Origin: Eubacterium sp. | GTDB taxonomy: Bacteria > Bacillota > Clostridia > Oscillospirales > Acutalibacteraceae | DNA length: 28,706 nt | NCBI GenBank assembly: GCA_029054965.1 | Contig: JAIDEF010000075.1 | Coordinates: forward strand, 1 to 28,706 | Direction of reading: 5' to 3' | Part shown: piece after piece, positions 1 to 1,460 of the stretch | Layout: every line of letters begins with the position of its first letter | Position numbering within the stretch: the stretch's first letter is position 1 | Notes under the pieces: model-generated | What the model saw: the letters and a program-made list of their open reading frames with translations, nothing else | Database searches by the model: none | Told to the model about the DNA's origin: nothing | Translations under genes and position numbers: made by a program

Positions 1-1222
1 GTATTTAGAAGATTTATCAGAAAACATCAAAAGTGTTTTCAATAACAAAAGACAAAATGGTGTACATATCGGAGCATTTGCTTTATACGGTTATCAGAAA
101 GACCCAGACCAAAAGGGGCATTTGATAATTGATGAAGAAGCTGCACAGGTTGTAAGAGAAGTATTTACATTATTTGCTCAAGGCTACGGTAAAACAACTA
201 TTGCCCGTATACTGAATGATAGGGGTATTCCCAACCCAACCGAATACAAAAGGCAAAAGGGATTGCGTTATAAACAGGCAAGGTCAAAATCAAGTACATT
301 GTGGAAATACTTTGCAATATCAAATATGCTGACAAATGAAATATATCTCGGCAATATGGTACAAGGCAAATATGGCAGTATTTCTTACAAAACAAAAATT
401 AACAAGCCCCGACCAAAAGAAGAATGGTACATAAAAGAGAACACACACGAGCCGATTATTGACCGTGAGTTATGGGATAGAGTGCAAGCCTTAATCAAAG
501 AAAAAAGCAAGCCATTTTCTAATGGTCAAATCGGTCTTTTTGCTCGAAAAACCAAGTGTATGTACTGCGGTTATACACTGCGTACTACAAAACAGACTAA
601 CGGTGCACGTTATTTGGAATGTCCGACAAGGCACGTTTCAAAAGAAGCTTGTCAAGGTAGTATGATTTCTGTTGATGTTCTTGAAAGAATTGTACTAAAA
701 GAACTGCAAGAGTTATCAAAAAAATATATTGATAACAACTATATTGCAGAACACACAGAATTTAACAGCAGAATTACTGAGCAAATCGAAATTAAAGAAA
801 ACTTAATTTCAGATTATCAGCAGAAAAGCAATGAGTGTTCAGAGGGAATTAAAAGTCTGTATATTGATAAGGTCAAAGGACTTATTACAGAAGATATTTT
901 TATTGACCTTACAAAAAATTTACACGCTGATAAAAACCGTGCAGAAGAAATGATACTTACACTATCGGAACAAATAGAAGAACTTAAACAAAAACTGCTA
1001 TGTGCCGAGAGTAAAGAGGAACGAATAAAACAGTACACCAATATTGAAAAATTAAACCGTGAAATAGTCGATACAATGATTGATTATATTGAAGTCGGCA
1101 AACGAATCCCGGGAACGAAAAAAAGACCAGTAAATATTTACTGGAATTTCTGAAAATCCCCGTAAAATCAAGGGTTTTCGACACTGTATGTAATCGTAAA
1201 ATATAAGATTTTAAAAATCGTG
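1..1222 (+). mobile_element. Right end of an integrated element carrying a large serine recombinase
   Basis: The stretch consists of the 3' part of a large serine recombinase gene followed by about 70 non-coding bases, after which the sequence becomes an in-frame cotJC-like manganese catalase tail that lacks its own beginning. A recombinase gene lying beside a truncated host gene is the usual layout at the end of an element integrated by that recombinase. The left end, and hence the size and type of the element (prophage, ICE or skin-like), is outside the window. The right boundary near 1222 is inferred from where catalase similarity starts (Glu codon at 1226) and is only accurate to about 10 bases. 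Confidence 0.7.
2..1153 (+). CDS. Large serine recombinase, C-terminal part (5' truncated by window edge)
   Basis: Site-specific DNA integrase/excisionase of the large serine family; it cuts and rejoins attP and attB through a catalytic serine. The frame is open from base 2, so the TTG at 122 is not the true start. The visible 383 residues begin at the end of the catalytic region with the family hallmark GAFALYGYQKDP near residue 25. They continue through the recombinase domain (IIDEEAAQVVREVF), a zinc ribbon with Cys at visible residues 186, 189, 207 and 217, and a coiled coil at about 250-340 rich in Glu, Lys and Leu. The coiled coil in this family controls synapsis and the direction of recombination. 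The N-terminal domain with the catalytic Ser and Arg residues is outside the window. The stop at 1151-1153 is followed by an imperfect inverted repeat and then the interrupted catalase gene. The family call is firm; the activity of this copy cannot be judged without its N-terminus. Confidence 0.93.
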   Translation, partial: YLEDLSENIKSVFNNKRQNGVHIGAFALYGYQKDPDQKGHLIIDEEAAQVVREVFTLFAQGYGKTTIARILNDRGIPNPTEYKRQKGLRYKQARSKSSTLWKYFAISNMLTNEIYLGNMVQGKYGSISYKTKINKPRPKEEWYIKENTHEPIIDRELWDRVQALIKEKSKPFSNGQIGLFARKTKCMYCGYTLRTTKQTNGARYLECPTRHVSKEACQGSMISVDVLERIVLKELQELSKKYIDNNYIAEHTEFNSRITEQIEIKENLISDYQQKSNECSEGIKSLYIDKVKGLITEDIFIDLTKNLHADKNRAEEMILTLSEQIEELKQKLLCAESKEERIKQYTNIEKLNREIVDTMIDYIEVGKRIPGTKKRPVNIYWNF

Positions 1223-1235
1223 CCAGAGCAAAAGG
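1154..1235. other. Probable attachment-site junction (attR-like)
   Basis: This non-coding stretch separates the recombinase stop from the first recognisable catalase codons. It contains an imperfect inverted repeat, GAAAATCCCC (1150-1160) against GGGTTTTCG (1172-1180), which could be a weak recombinase terminator or half of an attachment site. The frame of the catalase tail stays open leftwards to 1166, but the encoded residues there do not look like CotJC. Similarity begins at the codons for PEQKARVTY, from 1223. A crossover between about 1205 and 1225 is my estimate. The exact core dinucleotide can only be found by comparison with the left end of the element. Confidence 0.5.
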
Positions 1236-1417
1236 CACGTGTAACTTATGATAACATTTTGCGATTAGTAGATGACCCTGATATTATTGAACCTATCAGA
1301 TTCCTACGTGAAAGAGAAATAGTTCACTACCAGCGTTTTGGTGAAGGTTTGAGGCTGGTAACCGACAGGCTTGACAGCAAAAATTATTATATGACTAACC
1401 CAAGCTTTGACAAGTAA
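1220..1417 (+). pseudogene. cotJC: 3' fragment of a cotJC-like manganese catalase, interrupted by the recombinase element
   Basis: The 65-residue frame matches the C-terminal third of the manganese catalase/CotJC family: EQKARVTYDNILRLVDDPD, then FLREREIVHYQRF, then the terminal DSKNYY..NPSFDK. CotJC is an inner spore-coat protein with a di-manganese catalase fold that degrades hydrogen peroxide. The Glu at residue 3 and the His at residue 36 are 33 residues apart, the spacing of the last two metal ligands in characterised Mn catalases. The ligands in the first two helices are missing. The GTG at 1220 has no ribosome binding site, so this is not a complete small gene. The native stop and a strong terminator are intact, which suggests a recent insertion or a reversible interruption instead of decay. 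Whether the 5' part survives left of the element is unknown. Confidence 0.82.
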
Positions 1418-1420
1418 GCA

Positions 1421-1460
1421 AAAAGAATGAGTGTATTTTACACTCATTCTTTTATTTTAT
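1421..1460 (+). terminator. Intrinsic terminator after the cotJC tail
   Basis: A 12-bp perfect stem (AAAGAATGAGTG at 1422-1433 with CACTCATTCTTT at 1441-1452), a 7-base loop and a T-rich tail. It starts four bases after the catalase stop, so it was probably the original cotJC terminator and now also insulates downstream genes from the mobile element. Confidence 0.9.

Follow-up and report, generated by a model that had tools for sequence, protein, structure and literature searches.

Putative skin-like intervening elements, with their own large serine recombinases, in the spore-coat catalase gene cotJC of gut Clostridia

Several sporulation genes are known to be interrupted by elements that carry a serine recombinase, namely sigK (skin, Bacillus subtilis), spsM (SP-beta), spoVFB (vfbin), gerE (gin) and yabG (yin); excision is demonstrated for them, and each case is reported as one insertion per gene (PMC10747680; PMC5595907). 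In Clostridioides difficile, skin lies in sigK and has the recombinase CD1231 and the recombination directionality factor (RDF) CD1234, a small protein under the control of sigma-E and SpoIIID (PMC5025042). In the promoters of this species, the -35 box is ATA for sigma-E and AC for sigma-K, and the -10 boxes are similar (PMC3789822). In heterocyst-forming cyanobacteria, several interruption elements are described in 10 of 87 genes, with four of them in one nifD (PMC4874684).

The elements described here lie in cotJC. They share with the five systems named above a serine recombinase and an interrupted sporulation gene, and with gin an apparently non-phage nature, whereas excision is so far a prediction in the case of cotJC. 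With C. difficile skin (PMC5025042), the likeness extends to the insertion within a mother-cell gene of an element that has a large serine recombinase (LSR), to precise rebuilding of the gene, as predicted for cotJC, and to a small RDF under sigma-E there and a small ORF with a sigma-E-type promoter at cotJC. The two differ in the gene concerned, in the presence of several sites and elements in one cotJC, and in the position of the small ORF, which at cotJC sits just before the LSR gene. The heterocyst elements are similar in occupying genes of a terminally differentiated cell, with several elements per gene, but belong to another phylum, cell type and set of genes (PMC4874684). A literature search, with preprints and most subscription papers outside its scope, returned no report of an interrupted cotJC.

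The codon-137 junction, its attachment sites and its genome

The window analysed here (28,706 nucleotides) is the entire contig C395 of G000, a metagenome-assembled genome (MAG) of 421 contigs (1.86 Mb, 92.67% complete). Its features are collected in Table 1, in which the codons of cotJC are numbered as in the intact gene of G007 (199 codons).

Table 1. Features at the left end of the window
Feature	Positions	Strand	Evidence
LSR-C, C-terminal 383 residues of large serine recombinase	2..1153	+	open frame, Pfam PF07508, PF13408, PF14287
Element arm of attR, right element end	1194..1225	+	aligned with 69 right junctions
Crossover dinucleotide GA, bases 1-2 of cotJC Glu137	1226..1227	+	partner C99:2620-2621
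cotJC 3' piece, codons 137-199 and stop	1226..1417	+	Mn_catalase over cut-off, frame joined with C99
Terminator-like palindrome 3' of cotJC	1421..1453	.	opposite-strand self-match, T-rich sequence after

The recombinase fragment is a single open frame in which the Recombinase, Zn_ribbon_recom and DUF4368 profiles all score above their cut-offs. It ends with a TGA at 1151-1153; its 5' end lies outside the contig, and the first 135 residues are absent from the assembly. Over the 383 residues present, it is 90% identical to the LSR of G008, a member of the same genus. The crossover GA lies 72 bases past the LSR stop, and host DNA resumes there with the Glu137 codon; the Mn_catalase match, above cut-off, spans profile positions 147-197. 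The abrupt start of cotJC is a site-specific junction. The first-pass annotation had described the last 64 CotJC codons as starting abruptly about 70 bases after the recombinase stop, and only its codon number needs correction, to 63 host codons. Its description of an intact stop and terminator agrees with the TAA at 1415-1417 and the palindrome that follows, and its placing of a serine-recombinase element inside cotJC is borne out by exact junctions on both sides.

The second junction was found on contig C99 (L005), the only other place besides C395 where a Mn_catalase search of G000 gave a match. There, cotJC is interrupted at the identical GA, and the piece carries codons ~63-137. When C99 and the window are joined at the GA, the result is an open frame of 137 codons, with 0 gaps and 89.8% identity to codons 63-199 of G007. 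The absence of codons 1-60 from the C99 piece is explained by a second cut near codon 62, seen on that contig; these codons were not found in any of the 421 contigs, which is likely an assembly gap. The first-pass annotation had made its reading depend on a cotJC 5' half beyond the other end of the element and on a frame that rejoins: the first of these was found for codons ~63-137 but not for the first 60 codons, and the frame proved open throughout. Three of the features by which skin-like elements are recognized are present here: the reading frame of a sporulation gene cut by the element, exact att sites that restore the frame on recombination, and a serine recombinase encoded by the element (in the window, its C-terminal part).

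Across 46 left and 69 right junctions at codon 137 (site C, see below), the bases shared by every one were GA, with which the Glu codon begins. All 69 right ends match GA[AG]CA[AG]AA[AG]; therefore, excision would restore Glu. The element arms are inverted repeats with the consensus GTTGtnCTTa...GCAgCA-GA-TGgtgC...TAAGaACAAC, a layout usual in the attP sites of serine integrases, and the attR arm in the window has kept chiefly the inner part of this consensus. In the two-armed loci (n = 15), a mean of 17.7 of 30 bases was common to both arms, versus 7.8 after shuffling. Scans of viral contigs for excised circles with two attP patterns gave 0 matches each, which does not count against excision because the patterns reach near relatives only.

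The complete codon-137 element of G008 measures 11.4 kb. Its cargo comprises a large surface protein, a tyrosine integrase, Replic_Relax, a TrwB/TraG-type coupling protein and an M48 peptidase; among these five proteins scanned, the coupling protein and Replic_Relax were the only transfer genes, and the element of G000 is incomplete. The surface protein has a relative on C99, at the corresponding end of the element (291 of 517 aligned positions). Both are large surface-type proteins with CarboxypepD_reg at the left end of the element (L038:4042-8658 in G008; L005:2827-4545 in G000), and their C-terminal parts differ. The cotJC of G008 has three cuts, of which that at site B was read from the right side and that at site D from the left: a second recombinase gene stops 20 bases ahead of the cotJC piece before the element, and the piece after the element runs as far as the site-D sequence.

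With regard to the sporulation genes of the host, G000 has spoIIAA-spoIIAB-sigF, sigG and sigH (translations read by eye), cotJA-cotJB and both halves of sigK. No match to spoIVA was found in G000, while it is present in 20 of its 24 genus mates in the relative set; none of the sigma-factor loci read (10 of 12) could be recognised as sigE, and G000 has no sigE-like match as strong as those of its relatives. These absences are most simply read as gaps in the MAG, and a loss of sporulation is possible. The sigK gene is split in two in 4 of 40 genomes (G000, G015, G023 and G024), all at the same place; in G000 the pieces are C288:777-1118 and C170:1304-1651 (L266, L265), split at the IENEIL site, and an LSR gene adjoins the 3' part.

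The small ORF ahead of the recombinase gene

A conserved ORF of ~48 codons precedes LSR-C on the same strand in 86 of the 92 copies that have at least 350 bases upstream. Its profile had no other match within the loci collected by then. The 35 database homologues carry neither a functional name nor a Pfam domain, and searches of Pfam, PHROGs and solved structures with the members and the profile turned up nothing convincing. The pattern ATA-N16-18-CATANNNT occurs within 110 bases upstream of the small ORF in 45 of 68 non-redundant copies, with a spacing of exactly 17 in 39 copies; in 200 rounds of shuffling the mean was 1.07 and the maximum 5. Being related by descent, the 68 sequences are no independent sample, and what matters in this count is that the boxes are kept between differing spacers. 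The same sigma-E-type pattern precedes only 12 of 923 other ORFs in these loci, and the sigma-K pattern was found in one of the 68 upstream regions. These other ORFs replaced spoIVA promoters as the control; the latter had the pattern in 2 of 20 cases (shuffle mean 0.57) and were uninformative because another frame mostly runs up to spoIVA in an operon-like manner, as seen when the upstream stretches were viewed by eye.

The first-pass annotation had proposed looking for a sigma-E or sigma-K promoter upstream of the recombinase. A sigma-E-type promoter is strongly indicated in the element family, and its pattern is present in G008, which carries the nearest relative of the window's element, although the upstream region of the window's own LSR is unassembled. 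We regard the ~48-residue protein as a candidate RDF. The LSRs of sites A, B and D are mostly without the pattern directly upstream; among 12 complete A or B elements, it stands before the LSR in L097, before a 70-residue ORF in L100 and before two other ORFs in L181.

Recurrent cuts of cotJC and the recombinase lineages

The cuts in cotJC recur at a few places: site A (codon ~30), site B (~62), site C (137) and site D (~178, read from the left side only). A junction was counted when it was read with at least 25 bases beyond it, and this count supersedes an earlier one by profile coordinates (46 and 56). In the relative set, 26 of 40 genomes, including G000, had a Mn_catalase match; junctions at A, B or C were read in 9 genomes, and G004, G021 and G024 are cut at D only. 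G009 was removed from this set since its cut coincides with a contig end. SpoIVA, the product of another mother-cell gene, served as the control and gave exactly one match in each genome that has it (34 of 40).

In the class sample, a Mn_catalase match was present in 257 of 391 genomes. Fifty-two of these, chosen by eye for weak best matches (others with weak matches, e.g., G076, G109, G132, G137 and G372, were left out), were searched again, and at least one junction was read in 44 of the 52. Not counted were G104 and G303 (contiguous pieces), G228, G354 and G284 (pieces close or in a single frame), G359 (codons 1-91 only), and G188 and G207 (cuts at contig ends). As G036 and G037 also belong to the class listing, at least 46 of the 257 class genomes have a cut cotJC.

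Over both sets, junctions at A-C were read in 53 genomes, 15 of which have at least two of these sites cut. Both sides of the junction were read in 9 genomes at A, 27 at B and 9 at C. A few genomes have three cuts in one cotJC: in G197 sites A, B and C are all cut, each with both sides read, and the single-contig genome G173 has three cotJC pieces in order. G047 and G192 possibly have two cotJC copies, in which case the pieces could derive from different genes. Site D was used only for G004, G008, G015, G021 and G024, which have the same element sequence after the cut; in other genomes marked at D the end of the gene may be plain divergence.

Automatic joining of 42 pairs gave 37 open frames and 5 flagged ones, a rough check given that the scoring favoured in-register cores. 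Among the flagged joins, the stop in L100 is the gene's own, L038 joins at GA, and for L098, L098/L099 and L115/L114 inspection by eye gives an in-register join; some of the open joins have misplaced cores (e.g., L178, L182 and L109/L091).

In a tree of 49 LSRs, from which that of the window was excluded because of its missing N-terminus, the clades track the cut site, with 7 label changes (6 groups) versus 24.4 in shuffles, and a value as low in 0 of 200. Site C forms one group (support 84/68, or 100/100 without the long row L094), site B two, site A three and site D one. When named genomes were scanned with four LSRs of site C, at least 539 relatives were obtained, the best 80 of which were taken. 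Among these best 80, 68 loci adjoin a cotJC cut at codon 137, with the cut 3' piece in 50 and the cut 5' piece in 18 lying within 700 bases of the LSR end; as these loci were fetched independently, LSR-C stands beside the same codon more often than chance would allow. Three of the 80 end at a contig end and 9 have neither piece adjoining; in six of the latter a piece of cotJC lies at another place in the locus (L135, L159, L191, L200, L201 and L205), and no piece was found in the fetched loci L138, L146 (Holdemanella biformis) and L188. The hosts of LSR-C include Diplocloster modestus, Clostridium fessum, Parablautia intestinalis, Anaerotruncus colihominis, Anaerotignum lactatifermentans, Roseburia faecis, Longicatena caecimuris and Sporofaciens musculi. 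In viral contigs, a cut cotJC lies beside LSR-C in 5 of 20 loci. A sequence of Subdoligranulum variabile labelled as a circular plasmid (L269; OY725852.1, 5257-5514) has a site-C LSR, the promoter-bearing small ORF and a cotJC 3' piece, and may therefore be a chromosomal contig that was wrongly labelled.

The domain order of LSR-C is that of the TndX/TnpX-type recombinases of conjugative transposons; its identity to TndX is ~31%, and the TnpX domain is its best solved-structure match by sequence. LSR-C differs from these enzymes in its attachment, in those 68 of the best 80 loci, to one codon of one gene.

The 3' pieces at site C, counted where ungapped (gapped pieces were dropped), are open in 59 of 60 cases, with one internal stop (L154). 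The median dN/dS of cotJC 3' pieces is 0.175 over 263 pairs. Between G000 and G008, the LSR has a dS of 0.86 (dN/dS 0.06), versus a saturated or nearly saturated cotJC, indicating that the element moved after the hosts had parted. Since the element is younger than the split of the two species, the low dN/dS of the cotJC pieces may predate the insertion, and we set it aside as proof of function after insertion; a comparison with genes uncut there comprised 4 pairs only and was not used. The LSRs of D. modestus (L130) and C. fessum (L133) are nearly identical, which appears to be a sign of recent transfer between genera. As judged from these comparisons, the elements that cut cotJC are living mobile elements.

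Proposed excision in the mother cell and alternative explanations

Taken together, these data support the proposal of the first-pass annotation that excision may be developmentally timed. The scale, with recurrent sites, several recombinase lineages and several elements in one gene, lay beyond the view of that annotation. The codon-137 element is probably a skin-like intervening element with its own LSR, and cotJC would be rebuilt in the mother cell. Points on the other side are the lack of recognisable spoIVA and sigE in G000, an element younger than the G000/G008 split, the mostly pattern-free LSRs of sites A, B and D, and the three LSR-C loci devoid of cotJC. We infer the following course of events: sigma-E would switch on the small protein in the mother cell; this protein would act as the RDF for the recombinase, which would join attL with attR, release the element in circular form and make a complete cotJC available to coat assembly. 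In the forespore, the element would stay in place and thereby be passed on through the spore. As cotJC serves only a dying cell, it would offer a safe harbour, and this could explain why unrelated recombinase lineages are found at several sites in one gene of 199 codons. On the whole, cotJC pieces in many gut Clostridia look as if split by elements built for self-excision in the mother cell. We also lean, with some reserve, towards a broader view, in which cotJC is a standing split gene in gut Clostridia on which unrelated lineages have converged; some species would perform two or three excisions per mother cell, each through its own sporulation-controlled RDF (for codon 137, a new family of ~48 residues under sigma-E), and sigK of the window's species would be rebuilt likewise.

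The main rival holds that these are ordinary integrative elements (IMEs, ICEs or prophages) for which cotJC serves as attB since growing cells can do without the gene, and that leave it at a low level for transfer, outside developmental control. The coupling protein, Replic_Relax and tyrosine integrase of the G008 element agree with it, as do the near-identity of the D. modestus and C. fessum recombinases, the kinship of LSR-C with TndX, an LSR younger than the host split, and the failure to recognise spoIVA or sigE in G000. Nevertheless, we find this rival unlikely: it does not account for the sigma-E-type promoter, frequent before the small ORF and rare before other ORFs, for several recombinase lineages at one gene, or for the parallel split of sigK in G000. 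A mobile element with its attB in cotJC, the alternative named by the first-pass annotation, is, moreover, compatible with the skin-like reading, given that such elements are mobile.

That cotJC has instead been inactivated for good, its pieces being remnants yet to decay, seems very improbable. The elements are recent in their hosts, one 3' piece does contain an internal stop, and the gene may be dispensable, as C. difficile mutants of two CotJC homologues are described as having reduced catalase activity and no marked coat defect (PMC11222575), so that the pressure to rebuild may be weak. However, all the other ungapped 3' pieces are open, and complementary halves have been retained in many genomes. 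An artefact of assembly or binning is a negligible prospect, even though G000 is a fragmented MAG whose two contigs end within the element and though the cuts in G009, G188 and G207 fall at contig ends: both halves lie on a single contig in the isolates P. intestinalis (L135), S. musculi (L180) and L. caecimuris (L172), cuts are present in the single-contig genomes G173, G230 and G075, and this explanation is already refuted for the element family as a whole.

Rearranged sporulation genes have so far been reported as single cases in a few strains, whereas cotJC is cut repeatedly across a class and appears to be favoured by such elements as a safe location. As unrelated recombinases cut it at the same few codons, the idea of a safe harbour in genes of doomed cells becomes directly testable. 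The findings suggest that sporulation may restore genes which the annotation of gut genomes lists as broken, and annotation alone is no ground for calling draft genomes cotJC-negative. They also offer a sizeable collection of naturally occurring serine integrases whose attB and attP halves are known, together with an adjoining candidate directionality factor.

Two minor observations concern the gene itself. In G104:C16 and G303:C24 (L104 and L103), a frameshift breaks cotJC close to site B with no element present; this could be a scar or an error of sequencing. Downstream of the codon-137 3' piece, L151 (3265-3342) and L162 (8742-8816) carry a short second copy of the cotJC 3' end (codons ~174-199), which is perhaps the right side of a site-D element.
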